From positions 11,596,001 through 11,660,000 of the forward strand of contig NC_079879.1 in the NCBI RefSeq assembly GCF_029227915.1: DNA of 64,000 nt, in the 5' to 3' direction. The notes beneath the pieces are model-generated. The model was not told the origin of the DNA. It saw only the letters and a list, made by a program, of their open reading frames with translations, and did no database searches. Origin of the DNA: Hydractinia symbiolongicarpus (taxonomy: Eukaryota; Cnidaria; Hydrozoa; Anthoathecata; Hydractiniidae). The position numbers were made by a program, and so were the translations under genes. Shown here piece after piece: positions 1-64,000 of this stretch (the first letter of the stretch is position 1; every line of letters begins with the position of its first letter).

Positions 1-160
1 ATAATGACACTCAGTGCTTCCCAGTATTGACAAGGCCTTTAATCTTCTCAACAAGATCTTAACTTTCGGAGTCGAGTTCCAAATTGTTCGTATGGAGTGG
101 TTCCTCGGGATTCTGCGTGACACCTCACATGGTGAAAAAAATTCATTCTTTTAGCTAAAT

Positions 161-269
161 GTTCCCGACCCCCAACCGAATCGAAAAATAACGAAATTGA
201 CGAATACCGTAGAGATGATACATACCTTAAACTCAGGGACCTAGATATAGTGTGAGTTTTTTTATCTGT
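161..269 (-). ncRNA. SL RNA gene copy 1 (S unit)
   Basis: Predicted spliced-leader RNA of about 109 nt, donating its 5' exon to mRNAs by trans-splicing in the nucleus. The exon is 226-269. Read on the minus strand it starts ACAGATAAAAAAACTCACAC and ends CTAGGTCCCTGAGTTTAAG, immediately before splice donor GTATGT (220-225). Exon nt 11-17 (AAACTCA) pair perfectly with nt 35-41 (TGAGTTT) around a 17-nt loop. The intron half has a U-run resembling an Sm site, then a G-rich 3' segment. The 5' end was set by alignment to Hydra SL-B as I remember it and may be off by a few nt; the 3' end was set from the 3'-box position. This copy has T24A in the exon. Alternative: a non-trans-spliced small RNA, unlikely given the exon/donor layout. 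Confidence 0.82.
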
Positions 270-522
270 AACCTGTTCAACATTGCCTACAGAGGCCATA
301 ATGTGCGTGTTTTTATTGCTTATGGTGTTGATTCATTTGCTCGTGCTGCGCATGTGCGAGAATTACTGTCATAAGAACGCTTAGTATGCCAAAATACCTC
401 AGCACACGTTGTTAACTTTCCCGATTTCAAATTTCAAAATGTTCACAAGTTGTTTAAAACTTTATTCCTGTTTTGCCAGTTTTGAACTTTAAAGGAGAAA
501 TTCAGTGCAACGCTAAAAGAAG

Positions 523-577
523 CAGAAATCTTTGACCATCCTTGGGACTGCTGCAGAAGCAAGGTAAAACTTGTAAG
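523..577. repeat. S-unit-specific ~55-bp segment (reference copy)
   Basis: S units have AGAAATCTTTGACCATCC through GTAAGC here. L units go straight from AGAAGC to TGTAACC. This reciprocal difference means S and L are not related by a single insertion. No function visible. Confidence 0.85.
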
Positions 578-885
578 CAGTAACCTTCTCTAGGAACACG
601 GGTATGCTTAGGAAAGACGTGCTTTTTAAGACCTGTCCTGTGTGAGGAATGCCCAATCCAAGATTTCCGATGGAAAACTGCAACGGGTGTTTGTCTGGAC
701 TGAGAAAACTGAGTCTACGATGTCCGCCCAGTACCGACGCATTCATAATGACACTCAGTGCTTCCCAGTATTGACAAGGCCTTTAATCTTCTCAACAAGA
801 TCTTAACTTTCGGAGTCGAGTTCCAAATGTACGTATGGAGTGGTTCCTCGGGAATCTGCGTGACAGCTCACATGGTGAAAAAAAT

Positions 886-902
886 TCATTCTTTTAGCTA
901 AA
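886..902 (-). promoter_or_regulatory. snRNA-type 3' box downstream of SL RNA
   Basis: Minus strand reads TTTAGCTAAAAGAATGA just past the predicted RNA 3' end. It matches the metazoan snRNA 3'-end formation element GTTTN0-3AAARNNAGA in layout, with AAAGAATGA differing at one base from AAARNNAGA. The equivalent sits at the same offset (2-18 bp beyond the 3' end) in nearly all units. Copies 47, 48 and 51 have an altered TTTAGGTATATC on plus. This supports Pol II snRNA-like transcription; function is inferred. Confidence 0.55.
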
Positions 903-923
903 TGTTCCCGACCCCCAACCGAA

Positions 924-934
924 TCGAAAAATTT
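924..934 (-). other. candidate Sm-protein binding site in SL RNA
   Basis: Minus strand reads AAATTTTTCGA, in the intron half about 30 nt after the splice donor. The Sm consensus is RAU4-6GR; here a C follows the U-run, so the match is imperfect. Other units have TTATTTTTCGA at the same place. The downstream G-rich tract can pair with it (UUUUCGA with UCGGGAA, two G-U pairs), so the true Sm core could instead be the adjacent AATTTCG. Confidence 0.4.
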
Positions 935-962
935 CGAAATTGACGAATAACGTAGAGATGAT

Positions 963-968
963 ACATAC
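963..968 (-). other. SL 5' splice site GTATGT
   Basis: GTATGT on the minus strand directly after the AAG that ends the leader exon. I checked all 70 units by eye and found the hexamer unchanged in each, although neighbouring exon and intron bases vary. It is a good U1-type or U6-type donor. Confidence 0.8.
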
Positions 969-1089
969 CTTAAACTCAGGGACCTAGAAATAGTGTGAGT
1001 TTTTTTATCTGTAACCTGTTCAACATTGCGTACAGAGGCCATAATGCGCGTGTTTTTATTGCTTATGGTGTTTATTCATTTGCTCGTGC

Positions 1090-1101
1090 TGCGCATGTGC
1101 G
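1090..1101. promoter_or_regulatory. NRF1-like GC palindrome upstream of SL RNA
   Basis: TGCGCATGTGCG on plus, one mismatch from the NRF1/alpha-Pal half-site palindrome YGCGCAYGCGCR. It lies 78-89 nt upstream of the predicted SL start and is present at the same offset in S and L units. Copy 42 has lost it, and copies 28 (GTGCATGTGCG) and 44 (GCGCATGTGTG) have base changes. Binding is inferred from sequence only. Between it and the start is an A-rich AGCAATAAAAACACG stretch on minus at the distance of an snRNA proximal element. Confidence 0.45.
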
Positions 1102-1111
1102 GGAATTACTG

Positions 1112-1485
1112 AACACCTCGATGACACAGATAAACTGGGGAAGCGCTCAGAAATTAAAACTGGAATGACCGTGGTTACAAAATCGCTTCAGTGTAATCAA
1201 AATAAAAGTAGGACTGTTCGTATTCTATCTACTTTGAGGAGACATCTCGGGTGAAAAAAAGATGATCATCAAACAAACAATCCGTAAAGAGATACTGGAG
1301 TTACTTCTTGCTGCTCGACAATGATGACTATACAGACATTTTTAGGCAACAAATCCGTTAATTCAACAATTCTCTCAATGCACTCTTGCCTGCATAGCTT
1401 GTTAGTATTTGCTTAAGATTGCACCTTAATTATCAGGAAGCGCGAACTTAGTACGACAAAGATGACTGTACTACAAGGCTTTTAC
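1112..1485. repeat. L-unit-specific 374-bp segment (reference copy)
   Basis: Present in all 27 L units, absent from S units. It is inserted after AATTACTG and ends before TCATAAGAACGCT, which are adjacent in S. Plus strand begins AACACCTCGATGACACAG and ends CAAGGCTTTTAC. I see no terminal repeats, coding frame, tRNA, 5S rRNA or snRNA in it. It is strongly conserved between L copies. It may be an old insertion in an ancestral L unit or a segment deleted from S. Confidence 0.9.
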
Positions 1486-1965
1486 TCATAAGAACGCTCA
1501 ACATACCAAGATACTTCATCAAACGTTCTTGACTTTCCCGATTTGAATTTTCAAAATGTTCTTAAATTGTTTTTAACTTTCTCCTTATTTTGCAAATTTT
1601 GAACTTTAGAGGAGAATTTCAGTGCAACGATAAAAGAAGCTGTAACCTTCTCTGAAAACACGGGTATGCTTAGGGAAGACGTACTTTTCAAGACCTGGCC
1701 TGTCTAACGTTTGCGCAATGCAAGTTTTCCGATGAAAAACTGCAACGGGTGCTTGTCTGGACCGAGAAAACTGAGTCTACGATGTCCGCGCAGTACCGAC
1801 GCATTCATAATGATACTCAGTGCTTCCCAGTATTGAAAAGGCCTTTAATCTTCTCAACATGATCTTAACTTTCGTAGTTGAGTTCCAAATGTACGTATGG
1901 AGTGGTTCCTCGGGATTCTGCGTGACACCTCACATGGTGAAAAAAATTCAATCTTTTAGCTAAAT

Positions 1966-2074
1966 GTTCCCGACCCCCAACCGAATCGAAAAATAACGAA
2001 ATTGACGAATACCGTAGAGATGATACATACCTTAAACTCAGAGATCTAGAAATAGTGTGAGTTTTTTTATCTGT
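1966..2074 (-). ncRNA. SL RNA gene copy 3 (S unit)
   Basis: Exon 2031-2074 carries G30A and C33T, both in the otherwise conserved GGTCCC loop core. The pairing arms and donor are intact. A 6-bp spacer deletion lies upstream in this unit. Confidence 0.75.
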
Positions 2075-2703
2075 AACCTGTTCAACATTGCCTACAGAGG
2101 CCATAATGTGCGTGTTTTTATTGCTTATGGTGTTGATTCATTTGCTCGTGCTGCGCATGTGCGAGAATTACTGTCATAAGAACGCTTAGCATGCCAAAAT
2201 ACCTCAGCACACGTTGTTAACTTTCCCGATTTAAAATTTCAAAATGTTGTTGTTTAAAACTTTATTCCTGTTTTGCCAGTTTTGAACTTTAAAGGAGAAA
2301 TTCAGTGCAACGCTAAAAGAAGCAGAAATCTTTGACCATCCTTGGGACTGCTGCAGAAGCAAGGTAAAACTTGTAAGCAGTAACCTTCTCTAGGAACACG
2401 GGTATGCTTAGGAAAGACGTGCTTTTTAAGACCTGTCCTGTGTGAGGAATGCCCAATCCAAGATTTCCGATGGAAAACTGCAACGGGTGTTTGTCTGGAC
2501 TGAGAAAACTGAGTCTACGATGTCCGCGCAGTACCGACGCATTCATAATGATACTCAGTGCTTCCCAGTATTGACAAGGCCTTTAATCTTCTCAACAAGA
2601 TCTTAACTTTCGGAGTCGAGTTCCAAATGTACGTATGGAGTGGTTCCTCGGGAATCTGCGTGACACCTCACATGGTGAAAAAAAATCATTCTTTTAGCTA
2701 AAT

Positions 2704-2812
2704 GTTCCCGACCCCCAACCGAATCGAAAAATTTCGAAATTGACGAATACCTTAGAGATGATACATACCTTAAACTCAGGGACCTAGAAATAGTGTGAGT
2801 TTTTTTATCTGT
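2704..2812 (-). ncRNA. SL RNA gene copy 4 (L unit)
   Basis: Exon 2769-2812, majority sequence. One intron change (CTTAGAG for CGTAGAG on plus). Confidence 0.86.
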
Positions 2813-3765
2813 AACCTGTTCAACATTGCGTACAGAGGCCATAATGCGCGTGTTTTTATTGCTTATGGTGTTTATTCATTTGCTCGTGCTGCGCATGTGC
2901 GGGAATTACTGAACACCTCGATGACACAGATAAACTGGGGAAGCGCTCAGAAATTAAAACTGGAATGACCGTGGTTACAAAATCGCTTCAGTGTAATCAA
3001 AATAAAAGTAGGACTGTTCGTATTCTATCTACTTTGAGGAGACATCTCGGGTGAAAAAAAGATGATCATCAAACAAACAATCCGTAAAGAGATACTGGAG
3101 TTACTTCTTGCTGCTCGAAAATGATGACTATACAGACATTTTTAGGCAACAAATCCGTTAATTCAACAATTCTCTCAATGCACTCTTGCCTGCATAGCTT
3201 GTTAGTATTTGCTTAAGATTGCACCTTAATTATCAGGAAGCGCGAACTTAGTACGACAAAGATGACTGTACTACAAGGCTTTTACTCATAAGAACGCTCA
3301 ACATACCAAGATACTTCATCAAACGTTCTTGACTTTCCCGATTTGAATTTTCAAAATGTTCTTAAATTGTTTTTAACTTTCTCCTTATTTTGCAAATTTT
3401 GAACTTTAGAGGAGAATTTCAGTGCAACGATAAAAGAAGCTGTAACCTTCTCTGAAAACACGGGTATGCTTAGGGAAGACGTACTTTTCAAGACCTTGCC
3501 TGTCAAACGTTTGCGCAATGCAAGTTTTCCGATGAAAAACTGCAACGGGTGCTTGTCTGGACCGAGAAAACTGAGTCTACGATGTCCGCGCAGTACCGAC
3601 GCATTCATAATGATACTCAGTGCTTCCCAGTATTGACAAGGCCTTTAATCTTCTCAACATGATCTTAACTTTCGGAGTCGAGTTCCAAATGTACGTATGG
3701 AGTGGTTCCTCGGGATTCTGCGTGATACCTCACATGGTGAAAAAATTTCAATCTTTTAGCTAAAT

Positions 3766-3874
3766 GTTCCCGACCCCCAACCGAATCGAAAAATAACGAA
3801 ATTGACGAATACCGTAGAGATGATACATACCTTAAACTCAGGGACCTAGAAATAGTGTGAGTTTTTTTATCTGT
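3766..3874 (-). ncRNA. SL RNA gene copy 5 (S unit interrupted upstream)
   Basis: Exon 3831-3874, majority sequence. The transposon lies about 215 bp upstream of the predicted start. The NRF1-like element at 3952-3963 and everything to -200 are retained, so the copy may still be expressed unless a distal element is needed. Confidence 0.84.
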
Positions 3875-4080
3875 AACCTGTTCAACATTGCCTACAGAGG
3901 CCATAATGTGCGTGTTTTTATTGCTTATGGTGTTGATTCATTTGCTCGTGCTGCGCATGTGCGAGAATTACTGTCATAAGAACGCTTAGCATGCCAAAAT
4001 ACCTCAGCACACGTTGTTAACTTTCCCGATTTCAAATTTCAAAATGTTCACAAGTTGTTTAAAACTTTATTCCTGTTTTG

Positions 4081-4089
4081 CCAGTTTTG
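4081..4089. repeat. target site duplication, left
   Basis: CCAGTTTTG, repeated perfectly at 7551-7559. Uninterrupted S units have it once at this place (CCAGTTTTGAACTTT). Confidence 0.95.
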
Positions 4090-4167
4090 CAATCTCGTTC
4101 CCAGGGCTTCTTTTTCTCTTTCTGATATGTGGCTGGCGCGAAAGAAGTAGCTCTGGGACTGGCCGGT
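4090..4167 (+). repeat. left terminal inverted repeat
   Basis: About 78 bp, beginning CAATCTCGTTCCCAGGG and ending near GGGACTGGCCGGT. Aligned with the other end it differs by roughly six changes, including one 1-bp length difference. Confidence 0.93.
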
Positions 4168-4199
4168 CAAAATACCCACCTATAGTGGGTATTTTTGAA
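4168..4199. repeat. hairpin-forming inverted repeat inside left end
   Basis: AAAATACCCAC and GTGGGTATTTT flank a 5-base CTATA loop, giving an 11-bp perfect stem, extendable with one bulge. It sits directly inside the left TIR and has no partner at the right end. Possible transposase-binding or structural site; no function shown. Confidence 0.6.
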
Positions 4200-4307
4200 A
4201 GAGCCGTTTGTCTTGCTTGTCCAGATTTTACGGAAGGAATATAGGAAGGTAACTGAGCATAAAAACAAGCATATGGCGAGTAAAAATTTAGTTAGCTGGC
4301 TAACAAG

Positions 4308-6061
4308 ATGGAAAATATAATACAACTTTTTTCCAAACTTCGACTTGCTCTAGAGAAAGGTTTTGACCCAAATTTTGTGTTAAAGCCCAAACAAATCATT
4401 TGCTTTGAACAACTAATTAATGGAAACGATACTCTTGCGGTTTTGCCTACTGGATATGGGAAATCCATTTTGTACCAGTTACTTCATTTTGTAATGCCTT
4501 TACAGAAGAAAAGAAACATAGTGATTGTTGTTAGCCCTCTCAACGCTATCATTGAGGATCAACAAAAAATTTTGAGCCAAAGAGGTGTAGAAGTTGCTAC
4601 ACTTACTTATGAAAGGGAAGAATGTACAGAAGATCCTTTTGCACATTTGAATACGGAAGATCCTGTCGAACCAAATTTCAAAGTTTCACATGAAATAAAA
4701 AATGGAGATATTGATTTTTTATTTGGACATCCAGAAGCATTTTTGTCACACACAGGAAGAAATTTACTAAAATCAAAAATTTATCAGGATAATGTTGTTG
4801 CATGTGTAGTAGACGAGGCACATTGTGTGGAATTGTGGTAAGTAAATTTTATATATAGCTAGCTACAAAATGTACAAAAACTATCAGCTAAAAATATAAA
4901 TGTATATATATACTCTTTTTGTTACTATGTATATACTATAATTTACATATTTAGGTATATATATATATATATATTATGTTTTTATATCGTTTCAGGGGAC
5001 TGGAATTTAGAAAAAGCTTTCAAGATTTGGTTGTCTTAAACACCATCTTTCAAGATCGCTCTATGCTTGCATTAACCGCAACTGCGGGAGATAAAATGAT
5101 TTCCAAAATTATAAAAGACTTATCTCTACAGAACTGCAAAATTGTAAAAGCCTCACCAAATCGTAGAAATGTGTTTCTAAGTGTAAAAAAACGACTTCCA
5201 AACAACTATGGTGTAAAAAGTTATGAACAAATTCTATTACTAATAGCAACAGAATTAAACGAAACAAGACGAGATTACCCTATCACAATTATATATATGG
5301 GTTTAAAATATTGTGGATATGCATATAAACTTTTTGATATGGTTATTGAAAATCCCTTCTGTGAAAACGAGATAACTCCAAGAGCTAAATTGTATGCTCA
5401 ATTTCATGCATCAACCACTTCGTGTATGAAAGAAGATATTTTGGAAGAATTGAAATCCTTAAACTCTCGAATAAGGGTAGTATTTGCAACCACTGCTTTT
5501 GGTATGGGTGTTAATGTACCTCAGGTTACTAACATTATTCATATTTCTCCCCCATCAAAACTGGAAAGTTACATACAAGAAATTGGACGTGCAGGGAGAA
5601 ATGGTGCACAATCAAATGCCATATTGTACTACAACAACTCTGACATCAGTAAAAATAATTTAAAAATGGATGAATCAATTAAAAAATATTGTCAAGAGAC
5701 TGATTGTCTCAGAAAATCATTGCTCAAATACTTCAGTTTTAAATGCGAAACACAAGACAATTGTTGTGAAAACTGTAATCCTACGACAACTGAAGATTTT
5801 TCTCCTGTTCATCATATACAAATGTCAGATATTGATAGAGAATCAATACGTTTAGAGCTAGAAATGATTAATGTTGAAAAGGAAGAAGACTCTCATTTAT
5901 TAACATTTGAGTTTAATTTGACACATGATGTTATTGGAAAAATTTCCAACAATTTTCATTTAATAACTTGTGAACGTGATTTATTGCATAAATTTGATGT
6001 TTGGGATGAAAGGTATTCGACAAAAATTTTTGATGTCATCAGAAAATATTTGAATCTATAA
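4308..6061 (+). CDS. RecQ-like ATP-dependent DNA helicase (two exons, transposon-borne)
   Basis: SF2 3'-5' DNA helicase core of 531 aa, coded by 4308-4837 joined to 4996-6061. Joining restores the split Trp codon, giving DEAHCVELWGLEFRKS, the RecQ pattern DEAHC..W(G)..FR. Motifs in order: Walker A LPTGYGKS (aa 46-53; RecQ usually has GGGKS), VVSPL (aa 74-78), DEAH (169-172), LTATA (about 203), motif IV TIIYMG, motif V TTAFGMGVN (342-350), motif VI QEIGRAGRNG (371-380). A Cys cluster (C409, C414, C427, C433, C434, C437) fits the RecQ zinc-binding subdomain. No HRDC domain is seen and the C-terminal ~90 aa are not recognised. No stop or frameshift interrupts it. Similar short RecQ-like proteins are common in cnidarian genomes. 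The start ATG is the first in frame, after CTAACAAG. Probably acts on transposition or replication intermediates; the role is inferred. Confidence 0.88.
4838..4995 (+). other. intron of RecQ-like helicase gene
   Basis: 158 bp, GTAAGT at 4838-4843 and TTTCAG at 4990-4995. Phase 2. AT-rich with a TA run near its 3' end. Removal joins TG|G to restore the invariant Trp after DEAHC. Confidence 0.88.
4956..4975. repeat. (TA)n microsatellite in intron
   Basis: About 20 bp of alternating TA between the branch region and the acceptor of the helicase intron. Confidence 0.8.
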
Positions 6062-6383
6062 GTATATAAATAATATATATAGTTTTTATTTCTTCTTTTA
6101 TTTTGTTGAAAACATTTTTTATTGGTAAGGTTGGACCATTAGAATTTTTGTGAAGCAGATTGTGTATATATATACTCTAGATAGCTAGTTTGATTATGCA
6201 ACAAATTTATAATCAAATAAGATTTTTGATGGGGTCAAACAACATTTATCTGTAAAGATATTTTAGACATCCTATATCAGCAATATTTTTTAAAGTCCAG
6301 CTTGCAATAAAAAGTTTATGTTTTTATGCGTATTCACATTCTAATAATGTATATATATATAACACATTGTGTGTAAGAATATT
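6062..6383. other. AT-rich interval between convergent genes
   Basis: Lies between the stop of the helicase (plus) and the last stop of the DUF6589-like segment (minus). It holds TA-rich tracts and an AATAAA at 6306-6311 that could serve as the helicase poly(A) signal. No coding region seen. Confidence 0.6.
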
Positions 6384-6971
6384 TTACTGATAAATACCTA
6401 TTTCATTTTTATGATTATCAAGCCATTTATGAAAGTCACTCACATTTAAATAGCGTAGTGGATTACTCTTTATATTGCAAAAGCTTGCATGAAATCTATC
6501 AGGTATCGAATCGAAGGGTTTTACTCTCAGCAATTCTTCAATTATTTCGATCTCATCATTTTTACTATTAGCAGTTGCATGTTGAACAGATTTTGCATGT
6601 TTCTCCAGTTCTTTATCGTAATTTTCAGTTATTTCTTAAATCCCACTTGTTGCTTTGCATATTTTACTAATAGAACTAAAGGTTTTGTTTGGTCCCATAT
6701 GATGTACAATATTTTTACTGATTTTATTTGTTATTTCCTGTGCTAAATCTTCTTCAATATTTTGACCAGGACCGCCTCTCCAATTTACAAAATAACTCCA
6801 CTTTTGTTGTTCAGCAAGCCTTGGTGTTAATAAGCTTTCCACTTGAGCTATTGATACAAACATTTCAAGTGCATACTTGCTGTAAAGACCCAGTGATTTG
6901 AAGATTGATAGCAACAGCTTTTGATTAACAAGGTTACAATCACCATCCCCTTCTTTTGCAGTATCCTTCAT
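6384..6971 (-). pseudogene. DUF6589-like C-terminal coding remnant with in-frame stop
   Basis: The open segment reads MKDTAKEGDGDCNLVNQKLL from 6971, followed by a YALEMFVSIAQ..LLTPRLAEQQKW..F.NWRGGPGQNIEEDL pattern and MGPNKTFSSISKICKATSGI. I recognise this as the C-terminal part of the DUF6589 family found in many cnidarian repeat-associated proteins. A TAA at 6636-6638 interrupts it. The same frame then continues coherently (EITENYDKELEKHAK.., LRVKPFDSIPDRFH.., NPLRYLNVSDFHKWLDNH) to a TAA at 6384-6386, so this looks like a point nonsense change. A TTGGTGTTGCAG acceptor directly precedes 6971, so it is probably an internal or last exon. The large N-terminal part expected for the family is absent. 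Family function is unknown; a transposition role is inferred from context. Confidence 0.7.
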
Positions 6972-7323
6972 CTGCAACACCAAAACTGTTGATGCATGGT
7001 TACATGATGAGAATATATAGCTAGTCTAGCTCTAGTTTTTTCACTACCTGAGTTTTTCTTACTAGTTATAACCTTTCCTTTTAAGAACACATAAGATCAT
7101 GATTAACTTTTTGTCAGATTTAAAGCCAGCTGTAGGGTATAAACAGGTGTAAAAAAGCATAGAAAAAAAGTGTGAAAAAAATTTAGCTAAACAAAAGGTG
7201 AGAAAAACCTATTTATAAGTACCTTGCATTATATCTTTTTACAGGTATCTTTTCAACATGGTCGTAAGCATTACCAAAATAATATTTTTTTAAATTTTAT
7301 TCTTTATGTAATAAAAATCTTCA

Positions 7324-7380
7324 AACTTCAACCATTAACAAACAGCAACATAACAAATCCCGCACATCATCTTCCGCCAT
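7324..7380 (-). other. possible 5' exon of the minus-strand transposon gene
   Basis: ATG at 7378-7380 opens a 19-codon frame (MAEDDVRDLLCCCLLMVEV), placed 90 bp inside the right TIR where a first exon would be expected. I see no convincing donor linking it to the exon ending at 6971. The rest of 6972-7471 is AT-rich without a recognisable coding segment. Confidence 0.2.
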
Positions 7381-7471
7381 TTTAAATTAACTCACGGCCG
7401 TTACGTTCTCGCCTTGAAGCAACTCGTCTTAAAACTCGCGTAATTGAAGAGCCAATGAAATTCAAACTTTA

Positions 7472-7550
7472 ACCAGCCAGTCCCAGAGCTACTTCTTTCG
7501 CGCCAGCACGCATATCAGAAAGGGAAAAAGAAGCTCTGGGGACGAGATTG
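7472..7550 (-). repeat. right terminal inverted repeat
   Basis: Reverse complement begins CAATCTCGTCCCCAGAGC and runs to GGGACTGGCTGGT, about 79 bp. It matches the left TIR with about six differences, so the element is not brand new, yet its target duplication is still perfect. Confidence 0.93.
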
Positions 7551-7559
7551 CCAGTTTTG
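7551..7559. repeat. target site duplication, right
   Basis: CCAGTTTTG, identical to 4081-4089. S-unit sequence resumes here. Confidence 0.95.
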
Positions 7560-7978
7560 AACTTTAAAGGAGAAATTCAGTGCAACGCTAAAAGAAGCAG
7601 AAATCTTTGACCATCCTTGGGACTGCTGCAGAAGCAAGGTAAAACTTGTAAGCAGTAACCTTCTCTAGGAACACGGGTATGCTTAGGAAAGACGTGCTTT
7701 TTAAGACCTGTCCTGTGTGAGGAATGCCCAATCCAAGATTTCCGATGGAAAACTGCAACGGGTGTTTGTCTGGACTGAGAAAACTGAGTCTACGATGTCC
7801 GCGCAGTACCGACGCATTCATAATGATACTCAGTGCTTCCCAGTATTGACAAGGCCTTTAATCTTCTCAACAAGATCTTAACTTTCGGAGTCGAGTTCCA
7901 AATGTACGTATGGAGTGGTTCCTCGGGAATCTGCGTGACACCTCACATGGTGAAAAAAATTCATTCTTTTAGCTAAAT

Positions 7979-8087
7979 GTTCCCGACCCCCAACCGAATC
8001 GAAAAATTTCGAAATTGACGAATACCGTAGAGATGATACATACCTTAAACTCAGGGACCTAGAAATAGTGTGAGTTTTTTTATCTGT
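7979..8087 (-). ncRNA. SL RNA gene copy 6 (L unit)
   Basis: Exon 8044-8087, majority sequence. First complete unit to the right of the transposon. Confidence 0.87.
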
Positions 8088-9040
8088 AACCTGTTCAACA
8101 TTGCGTACAGAGGCCATAATGCGCGTGTTTTTATTGCTTATGGTGTTTATTCATTTGCTCGTGCTGCGCATGTGCGGGAATTACTGAACACCTCGATGAC
8201 ACAGATAAACTGGGGAAGCGCTCAGAAATTAAAACTGGAATGACCGTGGTTACAAAATCGCTTCAGTGTAATCAAAATAAAAGTAGGACTGTTCGTATTC
8301 TATCTACTTTGAGGAGACATCTCGGGTGAAAAAAAGATGATCATCAAACAAACAATCCGTAAAGAGATACTGGAGTTACTTCTTGCTGCTCGACAATGAT
8401 GACTATACAGAGATTTTTAGGCAACAAATCCGTTAATTCAACAATTCTCTCAATGCACTCTTGCCTGCATAGCTTGTTAGTATTTGGTTAAGATTGCACC
8501 TTAATTATCAGGAAGCGCGAACTTAGTACGACAAAGATGACTGTACTACAAGGCTTTTACTCATAAGAACGCTCAACATACGAAGATACTTCATCAAACG
8601 TTCTTGACTTTCCCGATTTGAATTTTCAAAATGTTCTTAAATTGTTTTTAACTTTCTCCTTATTTTGCAAATTTTGAACTTTAGAGGAGAATTTCAGTGC
8701 AACGATTAAAGAAGCTGTAACCTTCTCTGAAAACACGGGTATGCTTAGGGAAGACGTACTTTTCAAGACCTGGCCTGTCAAACGTTTGCGCAATGCAAGT
8801 TTTCCGATGAAAAACTGCAACGGGTGCTTGTCTGGACCGAAAAAACTGAGTCTACGATGTCCGCGCAGTACCGACGCATTCATAATGATACTCAGTGCTT
8901 CCCAGTATTGACAAGGCCTTTAATCTTCTCAACATGATCTTAACTTTCGGAGTCGAGTTCCAAATGTACGTATGGAGTGGTTCCTCGGGATTCTGCGTGA
9001 CACCTCACATGGTGAAAAAAATTCATTCTTTTAGCTAAAT

Positions 9041-9149
9041 GTTCCCGACCCCCAACCGAATCGAAAAATAACGAAATTGACGAATACCGTAGAGATGATA
9101 CATACCTTAAACTCAGGGACCTAGAAATAGTGTGAGTTTTTCTATCTGT
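9041..9149 (-). ncRNA. SL RNA gene copy 7 (S unit)
   Basis: Exon 9106-9149 has A8G in the 5' A-run, outside the pairing arms. Confidence 0.8.
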
Positions 9150-9783
9150 AACCTGTTCAACATTGCCTACAGAGGCCATAATGTGCGTGTTTTTATTGCT
9201 TATGGTGTTGATTCATTTGCTCGTGCTGCGCATGTGCGAGAATTACTGTCATAAGAACGCTTAGCATGCCAAAATACCTTAGCACACGTTGTTAACTTTC
9301 CCGATTTAAAATTTCAAAATGTTCACAAGTTGTTTAAAACTTTATTCCTGTTTTGCCAGTTTTGAACTTTAAAGGAGAAATTCAGTGCAACGCTAAAAGA
9401 AGCAGAAATCTTTGACCATCCTTGGGACTGCTGCAGAAGCAAGGTAAAACTTGTAAGCAGTAACCTTCTCTAGGAACACGGGTATGCTTAGGAAAGACGT
9501 GCTTTTTAAGACCTGTCCTGTGTGAGGAATGCCCAATCCAAGATTTCCGATGGAAAACTGCAACGGGTGTTTGTCTGGACTGAGAAAACTGAGTCTACGA
9601 TGTCCGCGCAGTACCGACGCATTCATAATGACACTCAGTGCTTCCCAGTATTGACAAGGCTTTTAATCTTCTCAACAAGATCTTAACTTTCGGAGTCGAG
9701 TTCCAAATGTACGTATGGAGTGGTTCCTCGGGAATCTGCGTGACACCTCACATGGTGAAAAAAATTCATTCTTTTAGCTAAAT

Positions 9784-9892
9784 GTTCCCGACCCCCAACC
9801 GAATCGAAAAATTTCGAAATTGACGAATACCGTAGAGATGATACATACCTTAAACTCAGGGACCTAGAAATAGTGTGAGTTTTTTTATCTGT
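9784..9892 (-). ncRNA. SL RNA gene copy 8 (L unit)
   Basis: Exon 9849-9892, majority sequence. One upstream change close to the start (TGTTTAACATT on plus). Confidence 0.86.
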
Positions 9893-14527: not shown

Positions 14528-15161
14528 AACCTGTTCAACATTGCCTACAGAGGCCATAATGTGCGTGTTTTTATTGCTTCTGGTGTTGATTCATTTGCTC
14601 GTGCTGCGCATGTGCAAGAATTACTGTCATAAGAACGCTTAGCATGCCAAAATACCTCAGCACACGTTGTTAACTTTCCCGATTTAAAATTTCAAAATGT
14701 TCACAAGTTGTTTAAAACTTTATTCCTGTTTTGCCAGTTTTGAACTTTAAAGGAGAAATTCAGTGCAACGCTAAAAGAAGCAGAAATCTTTGACCATCCT
14801 TGGGACTGCTGCAGAAGCAAGGTAAAACTTGTAAGCAGTAACCTTCTCTAGGAACACGGGTATGCTTAGGAAAGACGTGCTTTTTAAGACCTGTCCTGTG
14901 TGAGGAATGCCCAATCCAAGATTTCCGATGGAAAACTGCGACGGGTGTTTGTCTGGACTGAGAAAACTGAGTCTACGATGTCCGCGCAGTACCGACGCAT
15001 TCATAATGACACTCAGTGCTTCCCAGTATTGACAAGGCCTTTAATCTTCTCAACAAGATCTTAACTTTCGGAGTCGAGTTCCAAATGTACGTATGGAGTG
15101 GTTCCTCGGGAATCTGCGTGACATCTCACATGATGAAAAAAATTCATTCTTTTAGCTAAAT

Positions 15162-15270
15162 GTTCCCGACCCCCAACCGAATCGAAAAATTTCGAAATTG
15201 ACGAATACCGTAGAGATGATACATACCTTAAACTCAGGGACCTAGAAATAGTGTGAGTTTTTTTATCTGT
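15162..15270 (-). ncRNA. SL RNA gene copy 14 (S unit)
   Basis: Exon 15227-15270, majority sequence. Sm-like haplotype AAATTTTTCG. Upstream GCTTAGTGTGTTG variant shared with copy 19. Confidence 0.86.
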
Positions 15271-15904
15271 AACCTGTTCAACATTGCCTACAGAGGCCAT
15301 AATGTGCGTGTTTTTATTGCTTAGTGTGTTGATTCATCTGCTCGTGCTGCGCATGTGCGAGAATTACTGTCATAAGAACGCTTAGCATGCCAAAATACCT
15401 CAGCACACGTTGTTAACTTTCCCGATTTAAAATTTCAAAATGTTCACAAGTTGTTTAAAACTTTATTCCTGTTTTGCCAGTTTTGAACTTTAAAGGAGAA
15501 ATTCAGTGCAACGCTAAAAGAAGCAGAAATCTTTGACCATCCTTGGGACTGCTGCAGAAGCCAGGTAAAACTTGTAAGCAGTAACCTTCTCTAGGAACAC
15601 GGGTATGCTTAGGAAAGACGTGCTTTTTAAGACCTGTCCTGTGTGAGGAATGCCCAATCCAAGATTTCCGATGGAAAACTGCAACGGGTGTTTGTCTGGA
15701 CTGAGAAAACTGAGTCTACGATGTCCGCGCAGTACCGACGCATTCATAATGACACTCAGTGCTTCCCAGTATTGACAAGGCCTTTAATCTTCTCAACAAG
15801 ATCTTAACTTTCGGAGTCGAGTTCCAAATGTACGTATGGAGTGGTTCCTCGGGATTCTGCGTGACACCTCACATGGTGAAAAAAATTCATTCTTTTAGCT
15901 AAAT

Positions 15905-53329: not shown

Positions 53330-53438
53330 GTTCCCGACCCCCAACCGAATCGAAAAATTTCGAAATTAACAAATACCGTAGAGATTATACATACCTTAAA
53401 CTCAGGGACCTAGAAATAGTGTGAGTTTTTTTATCTTT
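53330..53438 (-). ncRNA. SL RNA gene copy 59 (L unit)
   Basis: Exon 53395-53438 with C2A; duplicate of copy 53. Confidence 0.78.
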
Positions 53439-54388: not shown

Positions 54389-54498
54389 GTTCCCGACCCC
54401 CAACCGAATCGAAAAATAACGAAATTGACGAACACCGTAGAGATGATACATACCTTAAACTCAGGGACCTAGAAATAGTGTGAGTTTTTTTTATCTGT
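54389..54498 (-). ncRNA. SL RNA gene copy 60 (S unit)
   Basis: Exon 54454-54498 is 45 nt; duplicate of copy 54. Confidence 0.8.
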
Positions 54499-55132
54499 AA
54501 CCTGTTCAACATTGCGTACAGAGGCCATAATGTGCGTGTTTTTATTGCTTATGGTGTTGATTCATTTGCTCGTGCTGCGCATGTGCGCGAATTACTGTCA
54601 TAAGAACGCTTAGCATGCCAAAATACCTCAGCACACGTTGTTAACTTTCCCGATTTCAAATTTCAAAATGTTCACAAGTTGTTTAAAACTTTATTCCTAT
54701 TTTGCCAGTTTTGAACTTTAAAGGAGAAATTCAGTGCAACGCTAAAAGAAGCAAAAATCTTTGACCATCCGTGGGACTGCTGCAGAAGCAAGGTAAAACT
54801 TGTAAGCAGTAACCTTCTCTAGGAACACGGGTATGCTTAGGAAAGACGTGCTTTTTAAGACCTGTCCTGTGTGAGGAATGCCCAATCCAAGATTTCCGAT
54901 GGAAAACTGCAACGGGTGTTTGTCTGGACTGAGAAAACTGAGTCTACGATGTCCGCGCAGTACCGACGCATTCATAATGATACTCAGTGCTTCCCAGTAT
55001 TGACAAGGCCTTTAATCTTCTCAACAAGATCTTAACTTTCGGAGTCGAGTTCCAAATGTACGTATGGAGTGGTTCCTCGGGAATCTGCGTGACACCTCAC
55101 ATGGTGAAAAATATTCATCCTTTTAGCTAAAT

Positions 55133-55241
55133 CTTCCCGACCCCCAACCGAATCGAAAAATAACGAAATTGACGAACACCGTAGAGATGATACATACCTT
55201 AAACTCAGGGACCTAGAAATAGTGTGAGTTTTTTTATCTGT
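55133..55241 (-). ncRNA. SL RNA gene copy 61 (S unit)
   Basis: Exon 55198-55241, majority sequence; duplicate of copy 55. Confidence 0.86.
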
Positions 55242-55875
55242 AACCTGTTCAACATTGCCTACAGAGGCCATAATGTGCGTGTTTTTATTGCTTATGGTGT
55301 TGAATCATTTGCTCGTGCTGCGCATGTGCGCGAATTACTGTCATAAGAACGCTTAGCATGCCAAAATACCTCAGCACACGTTGTTAACTTTCCCGATTTC
55401 AAATTTCAAAATGTTCACAAGTTGTTTAAAACTTTATTCCTATTTTGCCAGTTTTGAACTTTAAAGGAGAAATTCAGTGCAACGCTAAAAGAAGCAGAAA
55501 TCTTTGACCATCCTTGGGACTGCTGAAGAAGCAAGGTAAAACTTGTAAGCATTAACCTTCTCTAGGAACACGCGTACGCTTAGGAAAGACGTGCTTTTTA
55601 AGACCTGCCCTGTGTGAGGAATACCCAATCCAAGATTTCCGATGGAAAACTGCAACGGGTGTTTGTCTGGACTGAGAAAACTGACTCTACGATGTCCGCG
55701 CAGTACTGACGCATTCGTAATGATACTCAGTGCTTCCCAGTATTGACAAGGCCTTTAATCTTCTCAACATGATCTTAACTTTCGGAGTCGAGTTTCAAAT
55801 GTACGTATGGAGTGGTTCCTCGGGATTCTGCGTGACACCTCACATGGTGAAAAAAATTCATTCTTTTAGCTAAAT

Positions 55876-55984
55876 GTTCCCGACCCCCAACCGAATCGAA
55901 AAATTTCGAAATTGACGAATACCGTAGAGATGATACATACCTTAAACTCAGGGACCTAGAAATAGTGTGAGTTTTTTTATCTGT
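55876..55984 (-). ncRNA. SL RNA gene copy 62 (L unit)
   Basis: Exon 55941-55984, majority sequence; duplicate of copy 56. Confidence 0.87.
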
Positions 55985-56937
55985 AACCTGTTCAACATTG
56001 CGTACAGAGGCCATAATGCGCGTGTTTTTATTGCTTATGGTGTTTATTCATTTGCTCGTGCTGCGCATGTGCGGGAATTACTAAACACCTGGATGACACA
56101 GATAGACTGGGGAAGCGCTCAGAAATTAAAACTGGAATGACCGTGGTTACAAAATCGCTTCAGTATAATCAAAATAAAAGTAGGACTGTTCGTATTCTAT
56201 CTACTTTGAGGAGACATCTCGGGTGAAAAAAAGATGATCATCAAACAAACAATCCGTAAAGAGATACTGGAGTTACTTCTTGCTGCTCGACAATGATGAC
56301 TATACAGAGATTTTTAGGCAACAAATCCGTTAATTCAACAATTCTCTCAATGCACTCTTGCCTGCATAGCTTGTTAGTATTTGCTTAAGATTGCACCTTA
56401 ATTATCAGGAAGCGCGAACTTAGTACGACAAAGATGACTGTACTACAAGGCTTTTACTCATAAGAACGCTCAACATACCAAGATACTTCATCAAACGTTC
56501 TTGACTTTCCCGATTTGAATTTTCAAAATGTTCTTAAATTGTTTTTAACTTTCTCCTTATTTTGCAAATTTTGAACTTTAGAGGAGAATTTCAGTGCAAC
56601 GATAAAAGAAGCTGTAACCTTCTCTGAAAACACGGGTATGCTTAGGGAAGACGTACTTTTCAAGACCTGGCCTGTCAAACGTTTGCGCAATGCAATTTTT
56701 CCGATGAAAAACTGCAACGGGTGCTTGTCTGGACCGAGAAAACTGAGTGTACGATGTCCCTGCAGTCCCGCTGCGATCATAATGATACTCAGTGCTTCCC
56801 AGCATTGACAAGGCCCTTAATCTTCTCATTATGATCTTTACTTTCGGAGTCTAGTTCCAAATGTACGTATGGAGTGGTTCCTCGGGATTCTGCGTGACAC
56901 CTCACATGGTGAAAAATATTCATTCTTTTAGCTAAAT

Positions 56938-57046
56938 CTTCCCGACCCCCAACCGAATCGAAAAATAACGAAATTGACGAACACCGTAGAGATGATACAT
57001 ACCTTAAACTCAGGGACCTAGAAATAGTGTGAGTTTTTTTATCTGT
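56938..57046 (-). ncRNA. SL RNA gene copy 63 (S unit)
   Basis: Exon 57003-57046, majority sequence; duplicate of copy 57. Confidence 0.86.
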
Positions 57047-57680
57047 AACCTGTTCAACATTGCCTACAGAGGCCATAATGTGCGTGTTTTTATTGCTTAT
57101 GGTGTTGATTCATTTGCTCGTGCTGCGCATGTGCGCGAATTACTGTCATAAGAACGCTTAGCATGCCAAAATACCTCAGCACACGTTGTTAACTTTCCCG
57201 ATTTCAAATTTCAAAATGTTCACAAGTTGTTTAAAACTTTATTCCTATTTTGCCAGTTTTGAACTTTAAAGGAGAAATTCAGTGCAACGCTAAAAGAAGC
57301 AGAAATCTTTGACCATCCGTGGGACTGCTGCAGAAGCAAGGTAAAACTTGTAAGCAGTAACCTTCTATAGGAACACGGGTATGCTTAGGAAAGACGTGCT
57401 TTTTAAGACCTGCCCTGTGTGAGGAATGCCCAATCCAAGATTTCCGATGGAAAACTGCAACGGGTGTTTGTCTGGACTGAGAAAACTGAGTCTACGATGT
57501 CCGCGCAGTACCAACGCATTCATAATGATACTCAGTGCTTCCCAGTATTGACAAGGCCTTTAATCTTCTCAACATGATCTTAACTTTCGGAGTCTAGTTC
57601 CAAATGTACGTATGGAGTGGTTCCTCGGGATTCTGCGTGACACCTCACATGGTGAAAAATATTCATTCTTTTAGCTAAAT

Positions 57681-57789
57681 GTTCCCGAACCCCAACCGAA
57701 TCGAAAAATTTCGAAATTGACGAATACCGTAGAGATGATACATACCTTAAACTCAGGGACCTAGAAATAGTGTGAGTTTTTTTATCTGT
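57681..57789 (-). ncRNA. SL RNA gene copy 64 (L unit)
   Basis: Exon 57746-57789, majority sequence. CCGAACCCC variant in the G-rich 3' segment. Confidence 0.85.
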
Positions 57790-58742
57790 AACCTGTTCAA
57801 CATTGCGTACAGAGGCCATAATGCGCGTGTTTTTATTGCTTATGGTGTTTATTCATTTGCTCGTGCTGCGCATGTGCGGGAATTACTGAACACCTCGATG
57901 ACACAGATAAACTGGGGAAGCGCTCAGAAATTAAAACTGGAATGACCGTGGTTACAAAATTGCTTCAGTGTAATCAAAATAAAAGTAGGACTGTTCGTAT
58001 TCTATCTACTTTGAGGAGACATCTCGGGTGAAAAAAAGATGATCATCAAACAAACAATCCGTAAAGAGATACTGGAGTTACTTCTTGCTGCTCGACAATG
58101 ATGACTATACAGAGATTTTTAGGCAACAAATCCGTTAATTCAACAATTCTCTCAATGCACTCTTGCCTGCATAGCTTGTTAGTATTTGCTTAAGATTGCA
58201 CCTTAATTATCAGGAAGCGCGAACTTAGTACGACAAAGATTACTGTACTACAAGGCTTTTACTCATAAGAACGCTCACCATACCAAGATACTTCATCAAA
58301 CGTTCTTGACTTTCCCGATTTGAATTTTCAAAATGTTCTTAAATTGTTTTTAACTTTCTCCTTATTTTGCAAATTTTGAACTTTAGAGGAGAATTTCAGT
58401 GCAACGATAAAAGAAGCTGTAACCTTCTCTGAAAACACGGGTATGCTTAGGGAAGACGTACTTTTCAAGACCTGGCCTGTCAAACGTTTGCGCAATGCAA
58501 TTTTTCCGATGGAAAACTGCAACGGGTGTTTGTCTGGACTGAGAAAACTGAGTCTACGATGTCCGCGCAGTACCGACGCATTCATAATGATACTCAGTGC
58601 TTCCCAGTATTGACAAGGCCTTTAATCTTCTCAACAAGATCTTAACTTTCGGAGTCGAGTTCCAAATGTACGTATGGAGTGGTTCCTCGGGATTCTGCGT
58701 GACACCTCACATGGTGAAAAAAATTCATTCTTTTAGCTAAAT

Positions 58743-58851
58743 CTTCCCGACCCCCAACCGAATCGAAAAATTTCGAAATTGACGAATACCGTAAAGATGA
58801 TACATACCTTAAACTCAGGGACCTAGAAATAGTGTGAGTTTTTTTATCTTT
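58743..58851 (-). ncRNA. SL RNA gene copy 65 (L unit)
   Basis: Exon 58808-58851 with C2A. GTAAAGATG (plus) by the donor, shared with copy 69, which has the majority 5' end. Confidence 0.78.
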
Positions 58852-59804
58852 AACCTGTTCAACATTGCGTACAGAGGCCATAATGCGCGTGTTTTTATTG
58901 CTTATGGTGTTTATTCATTTGCTCGTGCTGCGCATGTGCGGGAATTACTGAACACCTCGATGACACAGATAAACTGGGGAAGCGCTCAGAAATTAAAACT
59001 GGAATGACCGTGGTTACAAAATCGCTTCAGTGTAATCAAAATAAAAGTAGGACTGTTCGTATTCTATCTACTTTGAGGAGACATCTCGGGTGAAAAAAAG
59101 ATGATCATCAAACAAACAATCCGTAAAGAGATACTGGAGTTACTTCTTGCTGCTCGACAATGATGACTATACAGAGATTTTTAGGCAACAAATCCGTTAA
59201 TTCAACAATTCTCTCAATGCACTCTTGCCTGCATAGCTTGTTAGTATTTGCTTAAGATTGCACCTTAATTATCAGGAAGCGCGAACTTAGTACGACAAAG
59301 ATGACTGTACTACAAGGCTTTTACTCATAAGAACGCTCAACATACCAAGATACTTCATCAAACGTTCTTGACTTTCCCGATTTGAATTTTCAAAATGTTC
59401 TTAAATTGTTTTTAACTTTCTCCTTATTTTGCAAATTTTGAACTTTAGAGGAGAATTTCAGTGCAACGATAAAAGAAGCTGTAACCTTCTCTGAAAACAC
59501 GGGTATGCTTAGGGAAGACGTACTTTTCAAGACCTGGCCTGTCAAACGTTTGCGCAATGCAATTTTTCCGATGAAAAACTGCAACGGGTGCTTGTCTGGA
59601 CCGAGAAAACTGAGTGTACGATGTCCCTGCAGTCCCGCTGCGATCATAATGATACTCAGTGCTTCCCAGCATTGACAAGGCCCTTAATCTTCTCAACATG
59701 ATCTTAACTTTCGGAGTCTAGTTCCAAATGTACGTATGGAGTGGTTCCTCGGGATTCTGCGTGACACCTCACATGGTGAAAAATATTCATTTTTTTAGCT
59801 AAAT

Positions 59805-59913
59805 CTTCCCGACCCCCAACCGAATCGAAAAATAACGAAATTGACGAACACCGTAGAGATGATACATACCTTAAACTCAGGGACCTAGAAATAGTGTGAG
59901 TTTTTTTATCTGT
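59805..59913 (-). ncRNA. SL RNA gene copy 66 (S unit, chimeric spacer)
   Basis: Exon 59870-59913, majority sequence. The spacer switches from S to L type at about 60257-60264. Confidence 0.86.
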
Positions 59914-60547
59914 AACCTGTTCAACATTGCCTACAGAGGCCATAATGTGCGTGTTTTTATTGCTTATGGTGTTGATTCATTTGCTCGTGCTGCGCATGTG
60001 CGCAAATTACTGTCATAAGAACGCTTAGCATGCCAAAATACCTCAGCACACGTTGTTAACTTTCCCGATTTCAAATTTCAAAATGTTCACAAGTTGTTTA
60101 AAACTTTATTCCTATTTTGCCAGTTTTGAACTTTAAAGGAGAAATTCAGTGCAACGCTAAAAGAAGCAGAAATCTTTGACCATCCGTGGGACTGCTGCAG
60201 AAGCAAGGTAAAACTTGTAAGCAGTAACCTTCTCTAGGAACACGGGTATGCTTAGGAAAGACGTACTTTTCAAGACCTGGCCTGTCAAACGTTTGCGCAA
60301 TGCAATTTTTCCGATGAAAACCTGCAACGGGTGCTTGTCTGGACCGAGAAAACTGAGTGTACGATGTCCCTGCAGTCCCGCTGCGATCATAATGATACTC
60401 AGTGCTTCCCAGCATTGACAAGGCCCTTAATCTTCTCAACATGATCTTTACTTTCGGAGTCTAGTTCCAAATGTACGTATGGAGTGGTTCCTCGGGATTC
60501 TGCGTGACACCTCACATGGTGAAAAATATTCATTCTTTTAGCTAAAT

Positions 60548-60656
60548 CTTCCCGACCCCCAACCGAATCGAAAAATAACGAAATTGACGAACACCGTAGA
60601 GATGATACATACCTTAAACTCAGGGACCTAGAAATAGTGTGAGTTTTTTTATCTGT
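60548..60656 (-). ncRNA. SL RNA gene copy 67 (S unit)
   Basis: Exon 60613-60656, majority sequence. Confidence 0.87.
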
Positions 60657-61290
60657 AACCTGTTCAACATTGCCTACAGAGGCCATAATGTGCGTGTTTT
60701 TATTGCTTATGGTGTTGATTCATTTGCTCGTGCTGCGCATGTGCGCGAATTACTGTCATAAGAACGCTTAGCATGCCAAAATACCTCAGCACACGTTGTT
60801 AACTTTCCCGATTTCAAATTTCAAAATGTTCACAAGTTGTTTAAAACTTTATTCCTATTTTGCCAGTTTTGAACTTTAAAGGAGAAATTCAGTGCAACGC
60901 TAAAAGAAGCAGAAATCTTTGACCATCCGTGGGACTGCTGCAGAAGCAAGGTAAAACTTGTAAGCAGTAACCTTCTATAGGAACACGGGTATGCTTAGGA
61001 AAGACGTGCTTTTTAAGACCTGCCCTGTGTGAGGAATGCCCAATCCAAGATTTCCGATGGAAAACTGCAACGGGTGTTTGTCTGGACTGAGAAAACTGAG
61101 TCTACGATGTCCGCGCAGTACCAACGCATTCATAATGATACTCAGTGCTTCCCAGTATTGACAAGGCCTTTAATCTTCTCAACATGATCTTAACTTTCGG
61201 AGTCTAGTTCCAAATGTACGTATGGAGTGGTTCCTCGGGATTCTGCGTGACACCTCACATGGTGAAAAATATTCATTCTTTTAGCTAAAT

Positions 61291-61399
61291 GTTCCCGACC
61301 CCCAACCGAATCGAAAAATTTCGAAATTGACGAATACCGTAGAGATGATACATACCTTAAACTCAGGGACCTAGAAATAGTGTGAGTTTTTTTATCTGT
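61291..61399 (-). ncRNA. SL RNA gene copy 68 (L unit)
   Basis: Exon 61356-61399, majority sequence. Confidence 0.87.
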
Positions 61400-62352
61400 A
61401 ACCTGTTCAACATTGCGTACAGAGGCCATAATGCGCGTGTTTTTATTGCTTATGGTGTTTATTCATTTGCTCGTGCTGCGCATGTGCGGGAATTACTGAA
61501 CACCTCGATGACACAGATAAACTGGGGAAGCGCTCAGAAATTAAAACTGGAATGACCGTGGTTACAAAATCGCTTCAGTGTAATCAAAATAAAAGTAGGA
61601 CTGTTCGTATTCTATCTACTTTGAGGAGACATCTCGGGTGAAAAAAAGATGATCATCAAACAAACAATCCGTAAAGAGATACTGGAGTTACTTCTTGCTG
61701 CTCGACAATGATGACTATACAGAGATTTTTAGGCAACAAATCCGTTAATTCAACAATTCTCTCAATGCACTCTTGCCTGCATAGCTTGTTAGTATTTGCT
61801 TAAGATTGCACCTTAATTATCAGGAAGCGCGAACTTAGTACGACAAAGATGACTGTACTACAAGGCTTTTACTCATAAGAACGCTCAACATACCAAGATA
61901 CTTCATCAAACGTTCTTGACTTTCCCGATTTGAATTTTCAAAATGTTCTTAAATTGTTTTTAACTTTCTCCTTATTTTGCAAATTTTGAACTTTAGAGGA
62001 GAATTTCAGTGCAACGATAAAAGAAGCTGTAACCTTCTCTGAAAACACGGGTATGCTTAGGGAAGACGTACTTTTCAAGACCTGGCCTGTCAAACGTTTG
62101 CACAATGCAATTTTTCCGATGGAAAACTGCAACGGGTGTTTGTCTGGACTGAGAAAACTGAGTCTACGATGTCCGCGCAGTACCGACGCATTCATAATGA
62201 TACTCAGTGCTTCCCAGTATTGACAAGGCCTTTAATCTTCTCAACAAGATCTTAACTTTCGGAGTCGAGTTCCAAATGTACGTATGGAGTGGTTCCTCGG
62301 GATTCTGCGTGACACCTCACATGGTGAAAAAAATTCATTCTTTTAGCTAAAT

Positions 62353-62461
62353 CTTCCCGACCCCCAACCGAATCGAAAAATTTCGAAATTGACGAATACC
62401 GTAAAGATGATACATACCTTAAACTCAGGGACCTAGAAATAGTGTGAGTTTTTTTATCTGT
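62353..62461 (-). ncRNA. SL RNA gene copy 69 (L unit)
   Basis: Exon 62418-62461, majority sequence. Confidence 0.87.
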
Positions 62462-63414
62462 AACCTGTTCAACATTGCGTACAGAGGCCATAATGCGCGT
62501 GTTTTTATTGCTTATGGTGTTTATTCATTTGCTCGTGCTGCGCATGTGCGGGAATTACTGAACACCTCGATGACACAGATAAACTGGGGAAGCGCTCAGA
62601 AATTAAAACTGGAATGACCGTGGTTACAAAATCGCTTCAGTGTAATCAAAATAAAAGTAGGACTGTTCGTATTCTATCTACTTTGAGGAGACATCTCGGG
62701 TGAAAAAAAGATGATCATCAAACAAACAATCCGTAAAGAGATACTGGAGTTACTTCTTGCTGCTCGACAATGATGACTATACAGAGATTTTTAGGCAACA
62801 AATCCGTTAATTCAACAATTCTCTCAATGCACTCTTGCCTGCATAGCTTGTTAGTATTTGCTTAAGATTGCACCTTAATTATCAGGAAGCGCGAACTTAG
62901 TACGACAAAGATGACTGTACTACAAGGCTTTTACTCATAAGAACGCTCAACATACCAAGATACTTCATCAAACGTTCTTGACTTTCCCGATTTGAATTTT
63001 CAAAATGTTCTTAAATTGTTTTTAACTTTCTCCTTATTTTGCAAATTTTGAACTTTAGAGGAGAATTTCAGTGCAACGATAAAAGAAGCTGTAACCTTCT
63101 CTGAAAACACGGGTATGCTTAGGGAAGACGTACTTTTCAAGACCTGGCCTGTCAAACGTTTGCGCAATGCAATTTTTCCGATGAAAAACTGCAACGGGTG
63201 CTTGTCTGGACCGAGAAAACTGAGTGTACGATGTCCCTGCAGTCCCGCTGCGATCATAATGATACTCAGTGCTTCCCAGCATTGACAAGGCCCTTAATCT
63301 TCTCAACATGATCTTAACTTTCGGAGTCTAGTTCCAAATGTACGTATGGAGTGGTTCCTCGGGATTCTGCGTGACACCTCACATGGTGAAAAATATTCAT
63401 TTTTTTAGCTAAAT

Positions 63415-63523
63415 CTTCCCGACCCCCAACCGAATCGAAAAATAACGAAATTGACGAACACCGTAGAGATGATACATACCTTAAACTCAGGGACCTAGAA
63501 ATAGTGTGAGTTTTTTTATCTGT
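63415..63523 (-). ncRNA. SL RNA gene copy 70 (S unit, runs off window)
   Basis: Exon 63480-63523, majority sequence. The RNA and its NRF1-like element are complete; the unit's far spacer has CCAATATTTCAGATGG near 63910 and ends at the window edge. Confidence 0.86.
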
Positions 63524-64000
63524 AACCTGTTCAACATTGCCTACAGAGGCCATAATGTGCGTGTTTTTATTGCTTATGGTGTTGATTCATTTGCTCGTGC
63601 TGCGCATGTGCGCGAATTACTGTCATAAGAACGCTTAGCATGCCAAAATACCTCAGCACACGTTGTTAACTTTCCCGATTTCAAATTTCAAAATGTTCAC
63701 AAGTTGTTTAAAACTTTATTCCTATTTTGCCAGTTTTGAACTTTAAAGGAGAAATTCAGTGCAACGCTAAAAGAAGCAGAAATCTTTGACCATCCGTGGG
63801 ACTGCTGCAGAAGCAAGGTAAAACTTGTAAGCAGTAACCTTCTCTAGGAACACGGGTATGCTTAGGAAAGACGTGCTTTTTAAGACCTGCCCTGTGTGAG
63901 GAATGCCCAATCCAATATTTCAGATGGAAAACTGCAACGGGTGTTTGTCTGGACTGAGAAAACTGAGTCTACGATGTCCGCGCAGTACCGACGCATTCAT

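Follow-up and report, generated by a model that had tools for sequence, protein, structure and literature searches.

A large array of probable spliced-leader RNA genes in Hydractinia symbiolongicarpus, with candidate leader-tagged retrocopies elsewhere in the genome

The gene array in the window and beyond

The stretch of Hydractinia symbiolongicarpus DNA analyzed here (C5:11,596,001-11,660,000, in a genome of 480.9 Mb and 76 contigs), referred to in its full length of 64,000 bp as the window, is filled by a tandem array of one small gene with a 44-nt exon, a splice donor directly after it and an Sm-type site further on, and it is in our judgment almost certainly an inner part of the spliced-leader (SL) RNA locus of this animal. 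Searching with the pattern GTTTAAGGTATGT gave 70 matches, 68 of them exact and two with one mismatch, 100% on the minus strand, while shuffled sequences gave a mean of 0.15 and a maximum of 2 matches. A covariance model of our own, built from 13 chosen sequences, likewise found 70 copies in the window. Among the 69 spacings between copies, 33 were exactly 743 bp and 22 exactly 1,062 bp, with the remainder being 706 bp (two), 738-744 bp (six), 1,053-1,061 bp (five) and 4,213 bp (one). Pattern search and covariance model thus agreed with a sequence-only reading of the window, which had described one minus-strand block in each unit of 743 or 1,062 bp. The features of the array, and of one representative copy, are as follows.

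1..64000, minus strand: 70 SL RNA genes in tandem, with unit lengths of 743 or 1,062 bp and minor variants of 706 to 1,061 bp
15161..15270, minus strand: representative SL RNA gene (model match), with a predicted RNA of about 110 nt and a putative 3' end
15227..15270, minus strand: 44-nt leader exon of this copy, the GTATGT donor adjoining at 15221-15226
15183..15190, minus strand: Sm-type site ATTTTTCG of this copy (position counted from the sequence)
15318..15326, minus strand: expected place, at -56, of the proximal element CCATAAGCA in this copy
15144..15154, minus strand: expected place of the 3'-box-like consensus TAAAAGAATGA in this copy

The commonest form of the 44-nt exon was found in 48 of the 70 window copies, with 15 variants altogether, and the final 32 nt were identical in 58 copies. 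GTATGT directly followed the short exon in all 70 copies, which had been chosen by G[TC]ATGT, and within that selection the 44-nt exon and the GTTTAAG/GTATGT join of the sequence-only reading were borne out, as were the U-run, the G-rich segment and the 3'-box-like element that it had placed after the donor, all of which were seen in the unit consensus. An Sm-like motif, A..TTTTTCG, was present in 66 of the 70 copies about 37 nt past the donor, and so between 20 and 60 nt from it. The predicted start of the RNA is at ACAGATAA, a position supported both by the upstream element and by the dispersed exon copies described below.

Short and long unit types are interleaved along the window. Between about -127 and +292 relative to the donor their consensus sequences were near-identical; outside this block they differed, the long unit having about 375 bp extra just upstream of it (match coordinates). 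Mean pairwise identity was 0.969 among 41 short units and 0.979 among 27 long units, dropping slightly with distance (from 0.972 to 0.963-0.965 for short units and from 0.982 to 0.975-0.981 for long ones). Six pairs of identical units (four short, two long) were also found, the members of each pair lying 5-6 units apart, and block exchange between units is likely. A 5S-linked SL repeat was ruled out, as Rfam gave no match to a 5S ribosomal RNA (rRNA) gene in the window; neither did Rfam and ARAGORN together find any 5S, small nuclear RNA (snRNA) or transfer RNA (tRNA) gene in its SL units.

A diagnostic 19-mer, GTTTAAGGTATGTATCATC, had 504 exact copies genome-wide (457 reverse and 47 forward; reversed-pattern control 0), and among the 100 matches listed all were on C5. 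Array units were found from C5:11,392,420 to about 12,037,000, a cluster of about 645 kb or more that was read in separate pieces with unread gaps between them (200 kb left of the window, 11.76 Mb, L029, L030, L045 and L046). The earlier figure of at least 70 genes therefore holds within the window but understates the locus. The 200 kb to the left had 197 anchors, the first at 11,392,420, and zero N, and the piece at 11.76 Mb had four. Near C5:11,970,770, in L029 (C5:11970001-11979000), the orientation flips at an inverted junction between the main array and a diverged one, and past this point the units of the rest of L029, L030, L045 and L046 lie on the plus strand, as far as about 12.037 Mb. 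One short window unit gave nearly full-length matches of about 86-88% identity in L029 and L030, with shorter pieces reaching 90%. The covariance model found 10 copies in L029 and seven in L030, of which six L029 copies scored just 91-112 bits, compared with about 142 for the best main-array copies. The donor was GCATGT in three of the four L029 copies found by the exon pattern and GTATGT in all seven L030 copies, one of which follows CAG rather than AAG, and the leader mostly read ACTCACATTTTTC in this second array versus ACTCACACTATTTC in the main one. Judging from these sequences, we read the second, opposite-strand array as older and in part decaying.

The promoter element and the leader among known relatives

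In the same genome the snRNA genes U2, U1 and U5 carry an element of the form CCACAAGC, at -54, -57 and -55, respectively. When the RNA start is taken as ACAGAT, its counterpart CCATAAGCA lies 56 nt before the SL exon, exactly there in 58 of the 70 window copies, exact at -55 to -57 in 62 and with at most one mismatch in 68; in the pieces to the left of the window it was exact at -56 in 188 of 196 copies. As background, 66 of 64,000 sense-strand places in the window were within one mismatch of CCACAAGC, and windows of 11 positions contained a match of this quality in 11 of 19,964 cases in flank L009 and in 22 of 6,884 cases in the mobile element described at the end. The element had come to light when one SL copy was set against a single U1 and a single U2 promoter, and U5 served as a later check; the U5 pattern matched in five of six loci, all five alike, with the sixth reading CCACAAGCT by eye. 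The SL genes thus have an snRNA-type promoter, with its element at the same distance as in U1, U2 and U5. They share with these genes CCAYAAGC at -54 to -57 and a tandem or clustered arrangement, and with U2 also the 9-mer TAAAAGAAT of the 3' box, which has one-mismatch relatives in U1.

The leader itself was compared with published ones. Leaders of the Hydra SL-B types measure 46 nt, their RNAs 107 nt, and their Sm sites read AAUUUUGA or AAUUUUCG (PMC7986045), compared with 44 nt, about 110 nt and a site of the AAUUUUCG type here, and the likeness in these respects extends over Hydra SL-B to SL-G. Using as query a 35-nt Hydra SL-B1 sequence joined from PMC3273482 and PMC3795323, with shuffles that kept the last three letters, we found that the match to the Hydractinia exon was better than 2000 of 2000 shuffles, i.e. 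none was as good. For the other seven leaders, the shuffles (of 2000) that matched the true leader numbered 648 for Hydra SL-A, 89 for Nematoda 2, 237 for Nematoda 1 and at least 1,345 for each of the remaining four. The two exons can be aligned with TAG-TCCCTG and the final AAG in common, although part of the leader differs from Hydra SL-B and Hydractinia has a very large array in which one leader dominates. The exon core had 0 exact matches in the viral_contigs and genome_contigs collections, from which records very near the genome of the window may be left out, and three exact exon strings were printed in no paper found by our literature search.

The snRNA genes used for this comparison were themselves arranged in repeats. 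All 46 scored candidates for U2 were on C9, many of them 5.85 kb apart, and the two loci scanned of this 5.85-kb unit (L031 and L036) held tRNA, U2, U1, 5S and the histone 3' stem-loop together, with unit copies running in both orientations; in holding 5S and tRNA this unit differs from the SL units of the window. The same constellation has been published for Hydractinia echinata as a 5,998-bp repeat (PMC5011920), which agrees with the hydrozoan source that had been guessed from the window alone. U5 genes (46 candidates scored) were clustered at C11:18.2-18.8 Mb, with many steps near 669 bp.

Exon copies without a donor outside the cluster

If leader-bearing mRNAs are reverse-transcribed into the genome, exon copies lacking the donor are to be expected. 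A search for CTAGGTCCCTGAGTTTAAG followed by a letter other than G gave 31 such copies genome-wide and 0 with the reversed-pattern control; three lay inside the cluster and 28 outside it, on 12 contigs. With this exact search pattern, and with flanks compared over 180 bp at 20 loci and 110 bp at eight, the 5' part of the exon was found to be retained in 20 of the 28 dispersed copies (local score 18 or more out of 25, where the best of 1,000 random pieces had 15). In 18 of the 28 the likeness starts at exon nt 1-3, matching the start that the upstream element had led us to predict, and under the search pattern each of the 28 stops exactly at the donor position. The promoter side was gone, with 2 to 12 of 25 letters matching in the first 20 loci, where chance would give about 6. 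In the eight copies outside those 20 with a retained 5' part, that part is worn or short, and five of these form one element family, the L054 group.

The sequences downstream of the 28 exons fell into 17 families at E 0.001 (12 with a single member) or 15 at E 0.01 (10 single), five families having 2 to 5 members. Within the L054 group, and between L059 and L061, the 5' flanks were also common, and we count each of these two sets as copies of a single event. No other shared 5' flanks were found, and the family of L064, L065, L067, L068 and L071, which has none, appears to stem from independent insertions of a single leader-bearing RNA. To judge from their boundaries, the 28 dispersed exons look like reverse-transcribed trans-spliced RNAs and are candidate retrocopies, and they offer indirect evidence that the leader has been put to use. 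A single case, L060 (C6:16810840-16811019), has two leaders head to tail, ACAGATAAAAAAACTCACACTATTCCTAGGTTCCTGAGTTTAAG and then ATAAAAAAACTCACACTATTTCTAGGTCCCTGAGTTTAAG, before other sequence follows, and the inner leader is without its first four letters, ACAG. This fits a second round of trans-splicing at the AG inside the ACAG of the old leader, and hence a passage from RNA to DNA to RNA and back.

On balance we favor, with some reserve, the view that trans-spliced RNAs, probably including retrotransposon RNAs, re-enter the genome together with their leader, and that these fossil leaders mark retrocopies across the genome, as they do in dinoflagellates. Retrogenes with relic leaders in dinoflagellates (PMC6050394, PMC12014239) similarly bear genomic leader remnants at the retrocopy's 5' end, whereas here the host is an animal, the leader is a different one and the retrocopies are candidates known from leader and short flanks. 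About 30% of the Iso-Seq reads of transposable elements in Hydra bear SL sequences (PMC12220107), which fits leader-bearing retrotransposon copies in Hydractinia. A less probable but still serious account of the dispersed copies is that mobile elements took up the leader a few times and that it was afterwards amplified as DNA or together with the element, in which case the copies would tell little about the number of trans-spliced RNAs; the five downstream families with 2 to 5 members, and the shared 5' flanks of the L054 group and of L059/L061, are what it would lead one to expect. The 10-12 copies with downstream sequence of their own speak for retrocopies instead, as does the lack of further shared 5' flanks among the 28, and even captures ask for trans-splicing.

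Weight of the evidence, comparisons and a neighboring element

That the repeated block is an SL RNA gene, as the sequence-only reading had proposed, is thus supported by the snRNA-type upstream element, the donor, the Sm-type site, the match to Hydra SL-B1 and the 28 dispersed donor-less exon copies. In the mechanism that we propose, the small gene in each unit begins about 56 nt downstream of the snRNA-type element, stops short of a 3' box of snRNA type, is presumably transcribed by RNA polymerase II and would give a capped RNA of about 110 nt that binds Sm proteins. Through trans-splicing, other RNAs would receive its 44-nt exon at their 5' ends, a process that may continue, to whatever extent, at the present day. 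Hundreds of copies would be kept alike through unequal exchange and gene conversion, and the large copy number may serve to meet a high demand for leader RNA. SL function would in this way explain the upkeep of the repeat.

Several results weigh against this interpretation. The fold of the 110-nt RNA was no better than that of shuffles (z +0.64; 141 of 200 were equally stable) and no compensatory changes were seen; stems round the donor and the Sm site can be drawn with 96.4% of cells paired, alongside that z value and zero covariation. Rfam gave no match at gathering scores anywhere in the window, and none of its SL families at E up to 10 in the first 9 kb. Exon variation was frequent, as 22 of 70 copies deviate from the commonest 44-nt form, and in the left pieces the exact donor was missing in two and the exact Sm motif in 17 of 196 copies. 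When 31 window units were compared with eight units of the second array in 20-nt bins relative to the donor, the contrast was modest, with divergence of 0.03-0.16 in bins -130 to +49 and 0.02-0.24 in bins from +50 on; values upstream of -130 (0.24-0.40) are inflated by mixed unit types. The terminal-stem bin, +50 to +69, was with 0.215 as divergent between the arrays as spacer, while TTGTCAATACTGGGAAGCAC, at unit position +190 to +209, had a divergence of 0.022, below that of every gene bin.

A plain satellite or dead repeat, with SL-like features that are chance or relics and with dispersed exons that are scattered pieces, would agree with the long homogenized array, the silence of Rfam and the lack of a fold signal. 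We nevertheless hold it to be very improbable, given that the dispersed copies stop at the donor and in most cases begin at the predicted exon start, without promoter or intron, that the upstream element is placed as in U1, U2 and U5, and that the exon matches Hydra SL-B1. Slighter still is the chance that the block encodes another Sm-class snRNA and not a leader donor, as the upstream element and 3' box common to U1, U2 and U5 might suggest, in view of the absence of any Rfam snRNA match, the donor directly after a Hydra-like leader, and the exon found alone, cut at the donor and joined to other sequences.

Spliced leaders have been published for Hydractinia before: SL sequences in mRNA data and detected SL genes have been reported, with no sequence or array given in the text available to us, and the authors of the Hydractinia genome noted that leaders disturb the prediction of 5' untranslated regions (PMC11067881). 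The size and make-up of the array and the leader-tagged retrocopies were not met in the literature searched, which is no proof of their being undescribed. In flatworms, 111 SL RNAs in Schistosoma mansoni and 93 loci in Echinococcus granulosus have been counted, in tandem and homogenized clusters for which concerted evolution was proposed (PMC12582326), and up to 200 SL copies are cited for S. mansoni (PMC7986045). The Hydractinia genes are likewise tandem and homogenized; compared with those counts, they comprise 504 exact 19-mers, two interleaved unit lengths and a diverged array on the opposite strand. The array thus exceeds the animal SL clusters compared here, and its two unit lengths and diverged opposite-strand neighbor make it a good case for the study of concerted evolution. 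For a major spliced leader of an animal widely used as a stem-cell model, the present analysis also provides the sequence, the anatomy of the gene and a predicted start site, and leader-tagged retrocopies, if proved, would make retroposition countable in an animal from DNA alone.

Within one SL unit of the window lies a mobile element, which accounts for the spacing of 4,213 bp.

4090..7550, no strand assigned: mobile element of 3,461 bp, carrying long terminal inverted repeats and flanked by a 9-bp target duplication, CCAGTTTTG

It contains pieces of a RecQ-like helicase (DEAD, Helicase_C and RecQ zinc-binding) and, on the opposite strand, a DUF6589 piece.

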